From Ischnura elegans (taxonomy: Eukaryota; Arthropoda; Insecta; Odonata; Coenagrionidae), in assembly GCF_921293095.1 (NCBI RefSeq), contig NC_060254.1:110136917-110200916 (forward strand): 64,000 bases of DNA. The letters are read 5' to 3'. Under the pieces are notes generated by a model that had not been told where the DNA came from, made no database searches, and was given only the letters and a program-made list of their open reading frames with translations. Positions 6,143 to 51,553 of this stretch are shown piece by piece. The first letter of the stretch is position 1. Each line of letters starts with the position of its first letter. Made by a program: the position numbers and the translations under genes.

Positions 6143-7340
6143 TCTACATCTATATAATACCCCGCAAGCCGCCTAAAAGGCGTGTGGCAGGGGGTGTTAG
6201 GGTACCAGCCGTTTACAGCTAAAAAGTTAAGTGCTCAAACGAAGTTGGAACTAGCGTTTATTAAAGTCCTTTATGGTTCGGGGGAAAACGAATTCCCATA
6301 TCTATCCGTTCGGTAAAACATCTCTCTTAATTTATCGCTTCTATCGGACCTGGAAATATAGTGTGGCTCTAATACATATTATGTTCTCTGTGTCGCTCTT
6401 AAAGATATCCATTCTCAATTGTTCAAGCAATCTAAGCCTAGCGCGCAGCCTCCGAGTCTCCAACGGCTCCCGCAGCCTAACTCGCTTAACATCTGGGTAA
6501 CGCTGTCTGTACGCCCGTAGCAGTTTTTGACGAAACGCGCAGCCTTCTTTTGTATTTTATTCAGTTCGCGGATTAAGTCTTTCTGCACCGGATCCCATAC
6601 GCTCGCTGTATATTCAAGGTGCGGTCGGACGAGAACGAAATAGCACCTTTCTTTCACTTTCTCATCCAAAAATCTTCCCACAGTACGCTTGATGAATCCT
6701 AATTTCTTCAGGGCTATGCCGCAAATATTCTTTATATGTGTTCCCCACGTGAGGTTCGAGGTTATCGTAACTCCCAGGTATTTCACTTCGTCTGTTGCCT
6801 TTATGTTAATACCATCAACTGCATAAACATGGTTAGAATTGGACGAATTCCGCAAGAAATGTAACGCCATGCATTTGCTCAGATTAAGTTCGAGTCCCCA
6901 CTCTTGGCTCCACAAATGAACGTTGTTTCGGTCAGATGATAGAATTTCATAGTCAGAGTGATCACTAATTTCGCGATAGATGACAGCGTCGTCAGCAAAT
7001 AAGCGTATTTTACTGCTAATGCGGGGGCAGAGATCATTAATGTATATAATGAACAACAGGGGGCCGATTACGCTTTCTTGTGGAACACCTGATGTAACTT
7101 TTACAACATCAGAGCTTATTCCGTCAAGAACTACTTTTTGTTTACGATCTCTGATAAAGTCGCGTATCCAGTTTACAACTGTCTCGTTTAATCCGCATGA
7201 CTGTAATTTGTATAAAAGTTTGTTGTGAGGTACAGTGTCGAAGGCTTTCTTAAAATCTAAAAATAGTGCGTCAACTTGTCTTTTCGATTCACCAGATTTC
7301 AAAACGTCGTGATTGATCTCGGTATCCACGGTGTTTGCTT
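6143..7340 (-). mobile_element. 5'-truncated non-LTR retrotransposon
   Basis: A reverse transcriptase pseudogene (7329 down to ~6250) is followed on the - strand by a 3' end reading GGCTTGCGGGGTATTATATAGATGTAGATG at about 6172-6143. Related 3'-end scraps occur on the + strand near 10916-10985 and 26045-26112. Confidence 0.85.
6415..7329 (-). pseudogene. LINE reverse transcriptase, partial
   Basis: 304-codon open frame. RT motifs in order: QVDALFLDFKKAFDTVPHNK (motif A), SGVPQESVIGPLLFIIYIND (motif B, with Glu for the usual Gly in PQGSVLGP), RLFADDAVIY (catalytic FADD) and VKYLGVTITSNLTWGTHI, then the C-terminal HLEYTASVWDP region. The frame is lost near 6450; the rest of the C-terminus (RLRLLEQLRMDIFKSDTENI, then MFYRTDRYGNSFSP) is readable in another frame down to ~6260. 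The N-terminal endonuclease is absent. Confidence 0.88.
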
Positions 7341-7993
7341 CCAGTCACGCATGTGAATGGTAAGGTAGATATTTCCATAATTTCTTGATAATCCGCATAA
7401 AATTTGGGAGAAAATCATGCACGATGGACCTTTATTTCAAATTTACCGTGCATTTTCCCTTTACAGATTAAATAATGACCAATACTATTTTCATTTTTAA
7501 TATTATTCAACCAGTTTAAATGAGTTAACATGGAGAATTTCGCATTCCAAGCCCGCCTGCGCCCCATTCAAAATAGAACTCCCCTCTCCAAATTCGGTTA
7601 TACCTAGTCGCTTCCATTCCAACCCTCCCCGCCTACCAAGCACTATTCCCACTAACGCGGTTTTAAGCATCATCTCTCCGCTTAATATTCGCTCCATCCA
7701 GACCTTTTAGTTTCTTCCGTATTCCCTCAAATACATATATTTCATTAAATCGATTAAATATCGGAATAATTACAGATTGAATTGCAAAACTTACTTTCAT
7801 CTCAAATTATGAGTAACTTTTAATTCTAAGTGTATTTAATTCTAACTAGTCGACTGCAAGATCCTTTTTAAACTTAAATTCTACATCCTCATCAACATAT
7901 TTGTGGGTGGTCGTAATGGTGATTAAAAACTTTTTGGGCTGTATCGTCGGGTCAATGCATAGGTGGCCTCGGCGTTTCCCGGCCGATACTAGT
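7341..7993. other. No recognisable gene
   Basis: AT-rich; a 64-codon frame on the - strand lacks homology. Confidence 0.4.
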
Positions 7994-43976: not shown

Positions 43977-46900
43977 GTAAGTGAAAGTGAATTTGCTTGT
44001 CACCGTTGTTTTGAATCCTGTGTAATTTCATGTTCCCTTATACTATAGGTGTGGGCCATGCCAAAGAATAGCCCCGAAATTCGCAGAAATGTCTCGGAAG
44101 TATCCCAAGGCTGTGTTTCTGAAGGTTGATGTAGACAAATGTGCAGAAACTGCTGGGTCGAATTCTATCACGGCTATGCCTACTTTCATTTTATTTAGGA
44201 ATAAGGTAAGGGATTACGAGGTTATTTATTAAGGATTATACATCTCCACGTATTTTATATTTCAGTAGTATTTTTTGAGTCAATTGCGTCCCTAGTTATC
44301 GGTTTTTATCTCTGTCGTAGACGAAAGTGGACAGAATTCAAGGATCCGATGAAGTAGCCCTTGATTTGAAAATAGCGCATCACTATGGGACTGGAGAGGA
44401 GGCCGAGGACGATGCAGGAGTGCAGGGGCATGTGAGTTGATCTCTAAAATTCTCCTTGGAATGAATGCTTCTAAGGTTTAATTATCTACTGTCCTTATGT
44501 TCGCTATTCCCTTGCATTTTTAGGCTGAGATAAATAATGTTGCCTGCGTTTTTGCTAATTTCCGTTTGAATGAAAATAAGAGTATATGTTTGCATAATTT
44601 CAATGTGTAGAAAAGACAGCATACGTTTATTACTATCATAAGGAGAGATATAATATTTCAGCAATGCTTACTCAATGTCTGAGCATTAATTTGCACATTA
44701 TTTGGTCCTGTTCATGAATAGAAATCTTCTCAAAGCAAAAAAATGCATTTTTGTGCCGATCTGCACTTTTATTTCAATTTGACCATTTAATTTTATAATT
44801 TCGACGACTTTTGCATGACATGATTACCCTATATATTTTATGTTGTGTTTGGTTTCCCCCCTTCTTCCTTCTCTAAATGCAGATGGATCTTACCACATTC
44901 ATCGTGAAGCAGCAGTGCGAATGCCTCAATGAATCTGATGAACACCCCTTCGTTCATTGTCTAACTAGTGGTGGTGGATACCTGGAGTCAGATGTTGACG
45001 AACAGGTAAATTGTTGTCAGAAATAATGAAATGTGATGGAAATCATTTGAAGGCAGTGAAATAAATGCCTGAACAGGCTTCAATGTTCCATCATCAGGTT
45101 ATCAAGTAACTATCTCTGAACTTAGATGTGCATAGACACACGAGTGCTTAAATTCTGTTTAGGGTTGAAAGGATGATTGCATTTAGTTGCAAACAATTTA
45201 CCATGAATAATTTGCATTAAATTTTTTTACTCTCATTAACATTTTAAAAATATAACGATACCTAATGAAATGATAACTGAGTTGGCAAATGTTAGATTTT
45301 GCTGGGGAAGTGGGTGCCTAGAGGAATTTTCCCTTTGAATCATGTTACTTTTACAATTCTCATTTTCATTGTTTTCGTCTCATTCCAGCTCATCATTTCA
45401 ATATCGTTTACTCAATCAGTTAAGGTCCATTCTCTTAAAATCAAAGCTCCGCAGGACAAGGGGCCTAAGACAATTAAAATTTTCATCAATCAGCCACGCA
45501 CCTTGGATTTTGATATGGCGGACTCGTTCAAGCCTGTGCAGGAAATTGAGTAAGTTTCCACCATCTTACTTTTTTGGTATATTTTATGTTAAAATATATA
45601 TGTGCTGCATTCTTTTTTATGAGCGAGTGTCAAACAAAATGCAGATAAGAAATATTAAATTTTATCCTGGAATTAGAGGGAGTCCAGTGGATGGTATTCC
45701 ATTATGGCTTGGTTGATATTGCTTGGCCCTTTGATAAATAGGAAATTTGGTGATTAGGAAGATTTATGCCGAAGGATTTGGTGCTTTCCCAGCGAATCTC
45801 GTTGATGAACCCTTCTCGGGAAATCAGGTGGGTCAGGATGGACATAACTGCCAACGTTTCGATAGCCTTCTCTGCAATCGTCACCAGGACCTGGTAAGTG
45901 CTGGGTGTATACCATTCCAGGTCCATCATTCGCCATATTGTGAGGATGCGGCAGGGGAGAGTGTTGAAGTGTTGGCAGCGATGCCCATCCTGACTCGGCT
46001 GATTTCCCGAGAAGAGTTCATCAACCAGATTTATGCCCACAAATGAGATAGTTTGTTACTGGGGTTTAAATTGTGATTTTGGAAAATGTTCCGCTGATGT
46101 TCACAAAAACCCCATATATCGGCCTCAAATTAGTTTTACTGTGGTTTCAGAGGTAAGTGAGTGTGTGGAAGTTAGGAAACATAGCGTTAAATATTGAAAT
46201 GCATATAATCCTGTTTATCAAACGTGTGTATTTTATCTGGATATTTTTGGGAATATATAAGAAATGGCTTAATTGTTCCATGTGAAAATTTAATTTTGAA
46301 GTTGTCATTGAGTACAACGTGAAAGTTATAAATACCTACATTGCTTAAATAATACTTTCACAAATGCAGAATCCATTATTAGTCTGTAGAGAAGGATGTG
46401 GAGTGCTTCAGGGGTAAAATAACCATTTGAAAAGGCAAATAATGACCAAAAATTTCTTTGAAAAGGGGATGGAGAAATTATAGTATATGATGTGTTCTTT
46501 GGCACATTTATTGAAGTTTTTTTTCTGGTCTGGGCAATAAATGGTATGTACTGTGAATGGCATGTTTGAAGATGTCCAATTAAGAATATTTTTTAAATTT
46601 TCACTGTTTATTAGAAAGTTCTGAATGCATTAAGAATGGGTTGAAGGCAGCTTTCAGTGAGTTAGGTAGTTAGTTGGAAATTTTATGCAAGATACCCTTT
46701 CCTAGAAACAATAGTGGAATTTCAACACAGAATTCATGTAAATAATTTGAGTTATTACTTGCAAATGGTCCAATCCCATTTTAGTCCATAAGATTTGTAA
46801 TTAAAAAAACTAGTATCAACTACATTTTATCACTTCATATCTACTATAACTAGCCATGTATTGGTCATATTCTGTGCAGTAAAGCACTTAAGCCATTAAT

Positions 46901-49900
46901 TTCAATTGAAGGCACTCATAGGTGATTCATTAACATCCTAAAACTGTCAATGGACCAGAGTGGAGAAATTTGCAATAATACAATTTGAAAATTGGCGGAC
47001 ATTGGCAAAAAATGGCAGACCTGTATGCGAACTCGTGTGGCTCCTGCAATAATTCTCTAAAATCTTCGGAAAAAGTCATCGCGTGTGAACTTTGCCCACG
47101 TCTGTCTCATCATAAATGTTCAGGCCTCAACGAGCTGATATTAAAAGCAATAACTGATTGCAGAGATATCTCTTGGAAATGTTCCTCTTGTCGTTCAACA
47201 AAGTACATGTTTTCAAGTATGGTGTCAGACATTGAGACGCTGAAACGAGAGATAGTTCTCTTAAAAGACTCTATTCTGACCAAACAACAGAAATCGGTGT
47301 CATTTCCTGATTCAGTGCAAAAAACTGAGGTGACTAAGACCTCTGCATCTCCATCATCTAAAACTACGTTACCTGCCGCTGCTCCCTACGAAAAACCTGT
47401 AACACGCCAAACTTCAGCCAGGAGTCCCAAACAGGAAACGATGTCTTTTAATAAGACATCATTGCAAGCAGCTAAATTCATGGAGCCTACTTCTCATCGT
47501 GAAACTACTTCTCCAATGATGCAAAGGGATAATGGGTCTCCGGATCCATTTCTTTCGTCAAACCAACCGGAGCTGGCAAAGGACCTCAACGCCTCAAATG
47601 CTGTATTCACGCAGGTATCTTATCGGGAAAAACATCGCCGAACGCGGCTATATGGCACGGCCAAAACAGACGCAGCATGTCCTTTAAAAGCTGTGCCAAG
47701 GAAAGCTTACGTCCATGTCTGGAGAATGGATCCAGAGACCGACCCGAGTGCTTTTCACCACACCATACTTTATTCCAAGCTCAGGAAAATTGGGATCAAT
47801 GGCAATGCCTTATCTTGGTTAAAGTCTTATCTCTTAGACCGTAAACAATTAGTGCAGGTAAAGCTCAACCTCAAATCAAACGCTTGTACTTTTAGATCTG
47901 ATGTTGCCTGAACCAATTGTGGTGTACCACAAGGCTCTATATTAGGACCTCTTTTATTCATCATTTTCATAAATGATCTTCACAATAACTTTCCAAACAA
48001 TGAAGTTATATTATATGCGGATGATACATCCACACTGAACATAGGTGACAATTTTCTAGATGCTAGCAGTGCTGCCCGTCAAACCTTAATAACTATGTCC
48101 AAATGGTGCCGGTCAAACAACCTACTTCTTAATGAAAACAAAACATGCTTAATTCATTTTCATAATAAAATAAATCCACCAATTCAAAGCCCTCTTCTCA
48201 GAACAGACTCAAATATCACTATACTTCACTGTGACACCACTAAATTTCTCGGTTTATATCTCAATATGAACCTTGACTGGCAGCCTCACATAACCAAATT
48301 AATCAATAAAATGAATACTGGGATCTACATGATCAGGAAACTTGCCCCAACTACCTCAACTCAGATTCTAAGTCTCATCTACTTTGCCAAAATCCATTCT
48401 TTTTTAGTTTATGGAATTGTATTCTGGGGTAATAATAGCGCTGCAATCAAGGCATTTTCAATACAAAAGAGGGCTATCAAGAGTATGCTAAGGGTCTCAA
48501 TTAGGACCCTAGGAAGACCCCTATTCAAAGAACTTAGAATACTTACTCTCCCCTGTGTTTATATCTTGAACTAGCTGACCCGACAGACTTCGTCCTGTCA
48601 AAAAAATTTGTAATGTGGCAGTGTTTTGTTCCTACCTTTTTTATATTCTTTGCAAAAAATTATCCTGAACAGAACCGTCACCCTGGTAATAATTCGGTGT
48701 GAATTAAAAATAATTAAATAAAACACTATAAGCATTTAAAAGTAAGTAATTTTAATCATGTAAATCATAATTATTAACAAAAAAAAATCAGTTCTATTTT
48801 CATTGTAGTGCTTTGTGATAAACGATGTTTTTTGTTTGATTACCTGGCGCATAGACAAACAAATCTGATGGTTTTCCAATACGGGAACAGGCAACACACA
48901 ATTGACCATGTGAGAAACATGGGTTTTCCAAATTAATACCACAAACACTTAATGATTGCCCCTGGGACTTGTTTATGGTCATAGCAAAAGCAAGCCGCAC
49001 TGGAAACTGTAGTCGTTTAAACTCAAATGGCACATCAGTCGGAATCATTGGGATGCGCGTTATGAGAACATCTTCTCCATTATACTTTTCCTTTCAATAT
49101 AGTTGCTTCTATCACGTTGTTTAGTAGTTTTTTTATCGCTAACCGTGTGCCGTTGCAAAGGCGCGGTTGGTTGATATTTCGCAACATTATAATTACCGAT
49201 CCAACCTTTGATTGAAGATTGTGAGGTGGCAATCCTGGCAAATCCAGCGAGTTTAAAAATTCCGGTGGATAGTTAACTACATCGTCTTGGTTAGTTGCCG
49301 AATCAACTGATTTATATATCCTCGATTCGCCTGTAATTTGTTCTTGAATTTTGAAATTTAATTCATTTACATCAATGTTTTTGGCTGCCAATATAGCTCG
49401 TTCGCTTAACCAATCATGGTTTCTGTAATTTTGAGCAACATCTGGAAATACCTTCTGAATGAGTTCTTCTTTTGATTGAGTTAAATGACAAAAACTTTGA
49501 GGAAAGTTAATGCATCCAGTCAACATGTCAATAGGAAAATTGTCATTACCAATGTCAATGAGTTGTTTAGAGAATATGTTTCCAGATTGGTCATTTTGCA
49601 ACTCAACACGCATATTCTTGCTTAAATGAAATACTTTGACATATTTCCACAAATTGGATGACTTTAGACATACGTTGAGTTCATCAGCTGGCGTTGATCG
49701 TGGAATCACTGGCAATGTTTGACGAAAATCTCCTGCTAATAAAATCATTGCACCACCAAATCGGTTCTGATTGCACCGTAGATCTTTTAAAGTTCTGTTT
49801 AAAGCCTCCAAAAATTTTTTATGTGCCATCGTGCATTCATCCCAAATGATCAATCGACATTGCTGCAAAACCTTTGCCATTGCAGAGTTCTTCGAAATGT

Positions 49901-51553
49901 TGCAGGTTGGAGTTTCATTGCTTTGCATATTTAATGGCAATTTTAGTGCTGAATGGGCTGTTCGACCACCTTCAAGCAAAGTTGCTGCGATTCCTGACGA
50001 AGCGAGTGCAAGTGCAATTTTATTTTGTGAGCGAATTGTTGCTAATATTAATGAAATCAAAAAAGTGTGTCACATGCAATAACTTTTTTTTCATAGGTAG
50101 ATAACAAAACACTGCAAACAAAACAAAAGCACACTCAGTAGAGTACAACAGAAAATCCAAGAAAAACAACACCGGCAAAGGCGGCAAATCGACATTGACA
50201 GTTGTTTTTTTAATTTGTTTTTTTTTTAATCTGATATGACTTGAAGTCAAATCCTTTAAAGCCATACCAATGTTTTATTTTTTTGTCGCCTGCCGAAAGT
50301 AAAACATAAGAAATAATATCGCGAATCCAACCAAGTTGTTATTATTATATTTTGTGACTATTCAATTTGGTCGGGTCCGCGATCACTTTTTTTTAGTTTC
50401 GGAACGCGACATTAAATCCTCCAACGACGTATTCTGTGCTCCAACGCACACACGCACACTGTTATGATAGATATGATTGAATTTGAACTTTGTATAGCGG
50501 TAAGAAAGTGCAAATTTACTTTTTGACGTTAGGAACACACCTACATTTCTTAGATAACAGTGAGTGCTTGTAATTTAATATGAACTTTATATCATAGCAA
50601 TAAAGCTCAAATTGATTCTACGTTTTAGTTAGAAAACGTTTGTATGTGAAAAAGAAAAGGGCTGTTTTTAGGGTTTTCCCGGCAATTATTCGATTTTTTC
50701 TCGCCGTAAGAACCATCCTTGGACTTCAACGAACATTTTAAAAAAAGAATTGGCCAAATTGGTCCAGGCGTTGTTGAGTTATGCGCTTACCAACACATTT
50801 TGCGATTCATTTTTATATATAAGATTGCTGTACTTTTGTGAGAAACAATAGGCACCTGTTTATGCCCAACTCGTCAATCCATAACCACGGGGCCCGTGGT
50901 AAAGACAATGTCCATCTGAATAATCAGCCTTTTAATGTAAGCAGAAAAGGTTCTCACCACTCAGCCTCTATGGTTTATAATAAAGTTCCAAATCCAATAA
51001 AATGTGCAGTGAGTGATAATACTTTAAAAAATAAGCTAAAAGAACTGCTACTTAAGAAATGCCATTATAGCATTGATGAGTATCTTAATGACAAATTAAT
51101 ATAATTATGTATGTATTTAACTGCTTATCATTTCTTTGTAATTTCTATGTAACTTTTGTATAAACTTTTCTTCCTTTCTTGACTAAATCCTATGTTATAT
51201 TTGTATAGCCAACAGGAAATTAAATATTATTATTATTATTAAATTACTCCATTAGTTTTAGCTTATTCCAGGATTGAGCCATAGTGGATACGGTATGGTA
51301 TAACTATGGTGGAAGTTCACTGTTAACTTCTTTATATTCCAGATTAACACCACAAGATTTAGATGGAACCCCAGTTAATCTGCGATATGTGAAATTCCAA
51401 AATGTGCAAAATATTCAGCTCTTCATTCGGGATAACCAAGGTGGTGGCGAGGTCACTGCCATAGACCATTTGGTGATTGTTGGATCGCCAATATCAACTA
51501 CCAATATGTCAGAATTCAAACGTGTTGCCGGCAGGAAAGGAGAGAGCCATTGA
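43879..51553 (+). CDS. TXNL1: Thioredoxin-like protein 1 (TXNL1), six exons, complete
   Basis: Exons are 43879-43976, 44049-44205, 44321-44431, 44883-45005, 45389-45549 and 51343-51553. All five introns have GT-AG ends and compatible phases (2,0,0,0,2). The spliced frame is 861 nt including the stop, giving 286 residues, close to the roughly 289 of vertebrate TXNL1. The first ~105 residues form a thioredoxin fold with the redox motif WCGPC encoded across the exon 1/2 junction, the DVDKC segment and the cis-proline loop AMPTF. Exons 4-6 encode the PITH domain (CECLNESDE, YVKFQNVQNIQLFIRDNQG) and end in the family-typical GESH terminus. TXNL1 is known as a cytosolic/nuclear thioredoxin that associates with the 26S proteasome; that role is from the family, not from this sequence. 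The start codon has a favourable context (AAACAATGG). Intron 5 is swollen by a LINE and a Helitron. Confidence 0.95.
44049..44205 (+). CDS. TXNL1: TXNL1 exon 2 (thioredoxin active site)
   Basis: The exon opens with the last base of Trp and then CGPC, the redox dithiol. It continues through a segment with VDVDKC and ends at FILFRNK. Acceptor ACTATAG, donor GTAAGG. Both catalytic cysteines and the proline of the AMPTF loop are present, so the reductase site looks intact. Confidence 0.93.
44321..44431 (+). CDS. TXNL1: TXNL1 exon 3 (end of thioredoxin fold and linker)
   Basis: It encodes 37 residues from TKVDRIQGSDEVAL to GVQGH. The acidic linker GEEAEDDAG joins the thioredoxin domain to the PITH domain, as in other TXNL1 proteins. 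Acceptor CTGTCGTAG, donor GTGAGT. Confidence 0.9.
44883..45005 (+). CDS. TXNL1: TXNL1 exon 4 (start of PITH domain)
   Basis: It encodes 41 residues beginning MDLTTFI and containing CECLNESDEHPF, the most conserved start of the PITH domain, and ends at ESDVDEQ. Acceptor AAATGCAG, donor GTAAAT. An alternative start at its internal Met is unlikely because exons 1-3 join in frame. Confidence 0.92.
45389..45549 (+). CDS. TXNL1: TXNL1 exon 5 (PITH domain core)
   Basis: It encodes LIISISFTQSVKVHSL through KTIKIFINQPRTLDFDMAD to PVQEI and two bases of Glu. This is the beta-rich core of the PITH domain. Acceptor CATTCCAG, donor GTAAGT. The following intron is about 5.8 kb, far larger than the others (72 to about 450 bases), because of transposon insertions. 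Confidence 0.92.
45801..46025. repeat. Foldback element FB6 in TXNL1 intron 5
   Basis: The left arm (about 45801-45894, with GTTGATGAACCCTTCTCGGG and GTCAGGATGGACAT) is matched in inverted orientation by the right arm (about 45917-46025, ending TCCCGAGAAGAGTTCATCAAC). Arms are imperfect with a ~20-base spacer. The left arm contains CCAACGTTTCGATAGCC. Open frames across it are by-products of the palindrome and no protein is claimed. Confidence 0.7.
46985..47911 (+). pseudogene. LINE ORF1 (PHD-type zinc finger) fused in frame to part of reverse transcriptase
   Basis: The open frame is 308 codons. Residues 18-69 form a PHD-like zinc finger (C18-x2-C21, C34-x2-C37, His42/His43-C45, C66-x2-C69). 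A ~130-residue Ser/Thr/Pro-rich linker follows, then a basic stretch. From about residue 260 the sequence switches to a reverse transcriptase fragment (HTILYSKLRKIGINGNAL, WLKSYLLDRKQ). The endonuclease and N-terminal RT expected between ORF1 and this point are missing, so an internal deletion joined the two. TGA at 47909-47911 interrupts the RT just before GVPQGSILGPLLF, which follows in the same frame. It is a dead copy. Confidence 0.75.
47912..48570 (+). pseudogene. Reverse transcriptase domain of the same LINE, up to the Helitron junction
   Basis: After the in-frame TGA the same frame continues with GVPQGSILGPLLFIIFINDL, the catalytic YADD box near 48015-48026, the SKWCRSNNLLLNENKT segment and the KFLGLYLNMNLDW motif of the RT/thumb region. 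The frame is cut at 48570, between the second and third base of a codon, by the Helitron; the apparent stop just beyond belongs to the Helitron. The order of motifs matches jockey/CR1-like LINEs; I would not go beyond that. Confidence 0.8.
48571..50824 (-). mobile_element. Helitron, 2254 bp, internally deleted, both ends present
   Basis: Read on the - strand the element starts with TCTTATATATAAAAATGAAT (5' TC rule) at 50824 and ends GGGTCAGCTAG at 48571 (3' CTRR rule). A hairpin with stem GACAG/CTGTC (48582-48599) lies just inside the 3' end. The flanking bases are A and T, the standard Helitron target, and there is no target duplication. Inside is a PIF1-type helicase pseudogene. The Rep nuclease and the helicase N-terminus are absent. 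The insertion splits a LINE inside TXNL1 intron 5. Confidence 0.88.
48797..50066 (-). pseudogene. Helitron PIF1-like helicase, truncated and frameshifted
   Basis: The main open frame (50060-49080) starts one step after Walker A: TFLISLILATIR is readable but the GxGGxGKT part is gone, and a stop lies two codons before it. Then come ALASSGIAATLLEGGRTAHS, the Walker B-like WDECTMAHK, GDFRQTLPVIPRS and a motif V region with NGTRLAIK. At about 49083 a single extra base shifts the frame. The second frame (49048-48800) has FPVRLAFAMTINKSQGQS, the conserved motif VI region, and ACSRIG. These are the family marks of the helicase half of Helitron Rep-Hel proteins, which unwinds donor DNA during rolling-circle transposition. 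Confidence 0.88.
50825..51104 (+). pseudogene. C-terminal end of the split LINE RT protein
   Basis: The frame resumes directly at 50825 (third base of the codon interrupted at 48570) with Cys-Cys-Thr-Phe-Val and continues RNNRHLFMPNSS, then a segment with YNKVPNPIK and LKNKLKELLLKKCHYSIDEY, to a TAA at 51102-51104. The pattern VYNKLP..IK..L.L..FK..LK..L is usual at the end of LINE ORF2. A shorter open frame begins at the Met at 50838. Confidence 0.7.
51343..51553 (+). CDS. TXNL1: TXNL1 exon 6 (C-terminal end, stop)
   Basis: It completes the Glu codon and encodes LTPQDLDGTPVNLRYV, QNVQNIQLFIRDNQG, a V-x-I-x-G-x-P-x-x-x-T-N-M segment and the terminal KGESH followed by TGA. The acceptor is TATATTCCAG. 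An AATAAA hexamer at 51834-51839 lies 281 bases after the stop and is the best poly(A) signal candidate. Confidence 0.93.

Follow-up and report, generated by a model that had tools for sequence, protein, structure and literature searches.

At positions 48571-50824 of a 64,000-nucleotide stretch of the Ischnura elegans genome (the window), a Helitron-like element interrupts the reverse transcriptase frame of a LINE, which itself lies in an intron of a TXNL1-like gene. The locus raises the question of what kind of element this is, whether it entered the LINE without altering it, and whether anything beyond an AT dinucleotide marks the site that it took. Such a nested insertion is ordinary, yet this one is unusually well documented: the surrounding family is young and multi-copy, with exact ends and readable empty sites, and target choice beyond AT can therefore be tested by counting. 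Copies of the element and of the LINE were sought in 1.72 Gb of genome sequence on 110 contigs. The features of the locus are summarized in Table 1.

Table 1. Features of the nested insertion and its surroundings (window positions)
Feature	Position	Strand	Evidence or remark
Thioredoxin-domain match, TXNL1-like gene	44050..44208	+	PF00085, E 3.4e-15
PITH-domain match, first	44880..45005	+	PF06201, E 2.3e-5
PITH-domain match, second	45386..45556	+	PF06201, E 6.2e-18
Upstream LINE frame: weak PHD-like finger followed by the beginning of the reverse transcriptase block	46979..47911	+	Ends with TGA at 47909-47911
LINE reverse transcriptase, left of insertion	47912..48570	+	PF00078, E 1.1e-13
Target box ATAAA, +9 to +13 of host 3' flank, inside LINE	48558..48562	-	Window row of flank table
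Helitron derivative, 5'-TC...CTAG-3', 2,254 bp	48571..50824	-	Between host A and T; ends and empty LINE copies
Right terminal end: GACAG...CTGTC (48582-48599), 7 nt, CTAG (48571-48574)	48571..48599	-	Genome matches
C-terminal helicase piece, in a frame other than the 329-aa one	48800..49093	-	One continuous frame here in L015
PIF1-type helicase frame, 329 aa, starting just past the Walker A lysine position	49080..50069	-	PF05970, E 4.9e-53
Junction of the internal deletion that took the Rep half and Walker A	50064..50067	-	L015 still has the lost part; L009 and L010 colinear
Left terminal end: TC, with ATAAAAAT from element position 9 to 16	50809..50824	-	Same end in 20/22 elements
LINE C-terminal frame, right of insertion	50825..51104	+	Frame and genome copies; no Pfam match of its own
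Last PITH match, just 3' of LINE	51359..51526	+	PF06201, E 5.2e-14

Insertion site and ends of the element

Excision of the 2,254-bp minus-strand element, which has the arrangement A|TC...CTAG|T, brings GAA and TTGC together, and the LINE frame can then be read without a stop from 47912 to 51104, as a sequence-only reading of the window had proposed. That reading had also called the LINE frame uninterrupted, which holds across the junction but not over the whole length, an in-frame TGA being present at 47909-47911. Of all cuts placed up to about 30 bp from either end, just two combine TC...CTRR ends with A|T flanks, and 48571-50824 alone keeps the LINE frame. A right-hand frame open for 93 codons occurred in 6 of 20,000 first-order Markov sequences modelled like the right flank, and an open stretch of that length was found from 2,416 of 127,200 random window starts (1.9%). 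Restoration of the frame checks the length only modulo three, and the point is decided by empty copies of the LINE.

A comparison of the right LINE flank with the genome gave 85 candidates, of which 40 were scored and listed, the window being one of these. Twenty of the 39 listed non-window matches, taken from high in the list apart from three entries passed over, were compared with the window over 300 bases around the predicted insertion point. The LINE is contiguous at the junction in 20/20 of these copies from the same genome, 19 reading GAA|TTGC and one GCA|TTGC; gaps occur farther left of the junction in three of them (L029, L037 and L048). Because the LINE runs gapless through the junction in every copy compared, the insertion caused neither duplication nor loss of target bases, as had been claimed, and this, between A and T, is ordinary for Helitrons. 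That the target was changed by a multiple of three bases, or that the ends lie elsewhere, with the restored frame masking either event, would fit the insufficiency of frame restoration alone and the existence of two permissible cuts, but it is hardly credible in view of the 20 contiguous LINE copies, the broken frame at the second cut and the ends held in common with sister copies.

These ends were followed in 22 tabulated elements, the window copy included; extra partial family matches inside L016 and L024 were left out. The 5'-TC and CTRR-3' termini of canonical Helitrons are present (TC...CTAG in sister copies), and the empty LINE sites place the insertion between A and T with no target duplication, again as in canonical Helitrons. 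All 22 elements have CTAG followed by T, and 20 share the 5' end, 19 of them with A before the TC. Both termini are common to copies with unrelated flanks, and similarity past CTAG at unrelated loci was absent in the 22 elements examined. The base-exact definition of both ends, together with the A|T junction, is thereby upheld. The element starts with TCTTATATATAAAAATG, in which ATAAAAAT occupies positions 9-16. Near the other end a 5-bp inverted repeat stands 11 nt from the terminus, where a hairpin is expected (about 10-15 nt from the 3' end); the inverted repeat of the proposed hairpin is thus present, with a folding energy no better than that of shuffled sequences (z -0.63 for the last 30 nt).

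The last 17 letters of the 3' end had 131 exact genome-wide matches with A or T at +18 and 63 with G or C; 100 of the former and all of the latter were examined, and T stood at +1 in 163/163. The reversed pattern, used as control, gave 0 genome matches. The 19-letter left start had 225 matches with A or T at -16, a requirement that omits ordinary tandems, and the 100 listed provided 97 unique flanks. Fourteen of the 97 end in TCT (12 in ATCT), and their left end is probably three bases longer, that of L010 included; an initial assignment of L010 to a TT site was revised on this ground. With these 14 set aside, A occupies -1 in 76 of 83 unique flanks among the 100 of 225 listed. The points that count against a canonical account are the 14 TCT-ending flanks, the 7/83 without A at -1, the hairpin that is no stabler than shuffles, and L015 and L020, whose 5' end is unmatched.

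The LINE is multicopy, with at least 39 matches besides the window at 91-97% identity, and encodes a reverse transcriptase of the RVT_1 family (E 1.1e-13), for which no PDB sequence match was found. The PHD-like finger at the start of its upstream frame (E 0.004) falls below the Pfam cut-off. This frame runs into reverse transcriptase sequence near its end, from which, together with the domain matches, an internal deletion of the LINE near 47750 is likely. Target site duplications were looked for by comparing 46200-47012 with 51195-51300, which share a single 8-mer and nothing longer. At 6415-7344 on the minus strand the window has a further reverse transcriptase-like LINE frame, 309 aa long, which is 26% identical to the one described here.

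Thioredoxin and PITH matches to the left of the insertion and a final PITH part to its right support a TXNL1-like host gene with both elements in its last intron; a TXNL1 intron was the setting named by the earlier reading. The nesting of the Helitron in the LINE supports the order in which the LINE is the older and the Helitron the later arrival, also as first read, and divergence is consistent with it: the LINE differs from its relatives at 10-15 per about 300 positions (17 copies ungapped left of the junction), and the window Helitron is 99.7% identical to L009 and 99.3% to L010. The same intron contains an inverted repeat at 45795-46031 with 81-nt arms that are 80% complementary.

Coding content and internal deletion

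The best PDB match of the helicase frame is Helraiser 7lcc (residues 1069-1387, E 7e-52). The alignment begins at residue 1069, one past K1068, the residue given as Walker A in the Helraiser paper (PMC4778049). Neither Rep nor any other Pfam domain was matched in the three frames of 50070-50824. The longer copy L015 has a long frame in which GGTGKT precedes the same helicase sequence, and a Helitron_like_N match lies at its place (C8:17663464). Because L015 holds the missing region with GGTGKT, the window deletion is read as spanning the protein from its start to Walker A. The RepHel organization is thus seen at family level, in L015 and in PF14214 matches, and the window copy shows the helicase part alone. 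Open frames of 1,123 aa accompany some of the Helitron_like_N matches, at a distance of about 3.5 kb from listed 3' ends, and these open-frame RepHel copies are a candidate source of transposase in trans.

Across the deletion junction L009 and L010 align colinearly with the window copy, and the reading frames of the three differ. Since L009 and L010 carry this junction at unrelated flanks, the deletion preceded movement, the deleted element itself having moved; the window copy is accordingly a propagated deletion derivative that was non-autonomous when it moved. Other family copies have different internal deletions between the same ends, and the 3' part of the Helitron is found at 98-100% identity in at least 39 other genomic places. 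Landing of a full element followed by deletion within the LINE, against which we infer that nothing in the window itself speaks, would need one junction to arise independently three times, with L009 and L010 colinear over it at unrelated sites, and is very improbable.

Several observations concern the wider family and its possible relatives. In L028 two members of the family face opposite ways, separated by a short tandem-repeat array. Further Helitron_like_N families are represented by uninterrupted frames, many of them 1,481-1,499 aa and others 1,792-1,925 aa long (e.g. C1:60604224, C4:99681509); for the family with 1,481-1,499-aa frames no 3' end was found in 2.5-kb stretches, where similarity runs throughout. 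When CTRR-T ends from L009-L028, L067-L070 and the window were clustered, 8 clusters resulted, none of which is clearly a second canonical Helitron family. Searches of viral contigs yielded no relatives of the helicase or the reverse transcriptase, and the 3' end, sought as an exact pattern of 25 places among viral and prokaryotic contigs, yielded none either. The window has no Rfam match, and the 3'-end letters, sought in papers, were not found.

Taken together, the locus is read, with a probability of roughly 0.96, as a canonical rolling-circle Helitron of which an internally deleted member, mobilised in trans, inserted cleanly into an older LINE copy. The family would be active in this genome, or have been so very recently. 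A member that kept both ends and lost Rep and the helicase Walker A would have been mobilised by RepHel copies and would have entered the LINE in the TXNL1-like intron as a single strand, between an A and a T, the target being neither duplicated nor shortened. Observed here are both ends, the empty site, the deletion held in common, RepHel copies and the target motif; the rolling-circle mode, single-strand transfer and mobilisation in trans are inferred from established Helitron biochemistry. The basis for rolling-circle single-strand transposition is the Helraiser work (PMC4778049, PMC5876387), in which de novo insertions have the same A|TC...CTAG|T junctions (PMC4778049). De novo insertions are also on record for Xuan/Feng of wheat (PMC13286980).

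Target motif, left end and tandem arrays

Host 3' flanks were compared in a first set of 21, L024 being dropped as another family member follows it, and in a second set of 17 of 18, L059 being dropped as a tandem. In the first set positions +7 to +13 are A or T in 144 of 147 cells, and composition is near background from +14 on. ATAA starts at +7 to +9 in 16/21 flanks of the first set and 15/17 of the second, against means of 0.8 and 0.5 sites with ATAA in equal windows farther out. The genome-wide pattern matches were treated likewise: five tandems, the L024 site and two duplicates were dropped from the first list (92 sites) and three duplicates from the second (60 sites), both lists including the earlier copies. 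Of the 152 unique insertion sites, 116 have an ATAA start at +7 to +9, which is the case for 332 of 11,726 AT dinucleotides in the window (2.8%). When the letters at +7 to +14 were shuffled within sites in 2,000 runs, the mean was 38 and the maximum 57; base order matters, because the observed count exceeds all of these. The box is sharply placed, with letters near background from about +15, and in the 5' flank -1 is the one strong position, A/T being more mildly enriched at -2 and -3. The target of this Helitron family includes a motif in addition to the AT dinucleotide.

The motif resembles ATAAAAAT, which lies 9-16 nt into the left end of the element. After ATAAA the first list favours A, A, T, G, A as in the left end, AATGA ranking first of 1,024. 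In the second list, which was not used for discovery, A, A and T replicate (29, 21 and 17 of 38; p 6e-6, 0.02 and 0.02), G and A do not (7/38, p 0.46; 12/33, p 0.37), and AATGA ranks seventh of 1,024. The likeness had been extended to ATAAAAATGA, which ranked top of 1,024 in the first set, and was restricted to ATAAAAAT because the G and A failed to replicate. ATAAAAAT scores first of 28 8-mers of the same composition (6.37), with AATAAAAT close behind (6.23). The box starts at +7 more commonly than at +9 in targets and stands at +9 in the left end; a direct offset test on the first 21 flanks favoured +2 over 0, and the longer left-end variants would shift the box 3 bp farther. The likeness is therefore supported for ATAAAAAT and not for an exact register.

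A tentative reading, given slightly less than an even chance, is that Helitron targets are pseudo-left-ends, the transposase cutting A|T where a ATAAAAAT-like box starts 6-8 nt downstream. It would then recognise the target strand in the way in which it recognises the nicking site of its left end (A|TC with the box at +9). The scope of this proposal is one family, and it may amount to a general A/T-motif preference. Such a general preference for this kind of sequence is about as likely: at even odds, the 3' motif reflects a liking for easily melted A/T-rich or AATAAA-like DNA, and the likeness to the left end is coincidental. Helraiser favours A/T-rich DNA, most strongly on the 3' side (PMC4778049), the motif consists of A and T only, and the base preceding ATAAA is A in 34/58; the shifted register, the unreplicated G and A and the near equality of AATAAAAT tell in the same direction. 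A preference of that kind is harder to reconcile with the excess over within-site shuffles, the first rank of ATAAAAAT among its permutations, the sharp placement of the box and the A, A and T that recur in the independent set.

If targets are pseudo-left-ends, one recognition event would explain target choice, the 3'-sided A/T preference of Helraiser and insertions exactly at left ends, and Helitrons would parallel those HUH enzymes whose integration sites resemble their own nick site. TrwC and AAV Rep are HUH enzymes described as acting at such targets (PMC5714925). No statement that Helitron targets generally resemble the left end was found in the text searched, with figures and most subscription papers lying outside the search; the nearest is the suggestion for maize that an AT made up of a host A and the T of a left end could have served as a Helitron insertion site (PMC2267711).

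Insertion at a left end bears on the tandem arrays of the family, in which 3' ends run straight into a left end (5 of 100 listed). L067 1-7501 with L068 (G000:C3:128429800-128437960) contains three head-to-tail units with exact CTAG|TC junctions; the units measure 2,556, 2,557 and 2,557 bp and differ by 1-3 substitutions, as expected from repeated rolling-circle laps. L069 811-4141 contains three short family elements of about 1.0 kb that match the window copy over their first 180 and last 136 bases only; two of these, 1,028 and 1,000 bp long, adjoin exactly. It is somewhat more likely than not that exact CTAG|TC tandems arise only from multi-lap replication and are uninformative on target choice, an origin that the near-identical three-unit array favours. 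The unequal lengths of the adjoining L069 units count against it, as does the fact that insertion at a left end gives the same junction, a possibility discussed for maize (PMC2267711).

Comparison with known systems

The A|T junction, the ends, deletion derivatives, empty sites and tandems are already known in print. The motif is concrete and carries a concrete prediction for other Helitron families.

One close system is Helraiser/Helibat1 of bats, whose helicase is 39% identical over the aligned stretch. Like Helraiser, the present family has A|TC...CTAG|T, lacks target duplication and has its strongest A/T preference on the 3' side (PMC4778049); unlike Helraiser, the window copy is without Rep and Walker A. 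The 3' preference here resolves to a placed ATAAAAAT-like box, the Helraiser side of this comparison being taken from the text of that paper. The non-autonomous insect Hel1 likewise kept its ends while interiors were altered, with many intron insertions and with empty sites (PMC6544945); it differs from the window family by name.

Head-to-tail Helitrons of maize and bat have the same perfect CTAG|TC junctions, with G/T replacing A/T at the second left end (PMC2267711), whereas a near-identical three-unit array and an unequal-length pair occur here in one family. FoHeli of Fusarium oxysporum resembles the present family in that its ends were confirmed by reconstructed pre-insertion sites and its preferred site exceeds a dinucleotide (PMC5148889). 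In contrast to the window family, FoHeli has non-canonical ends and inserts between TNAT and A (PMC5148889).
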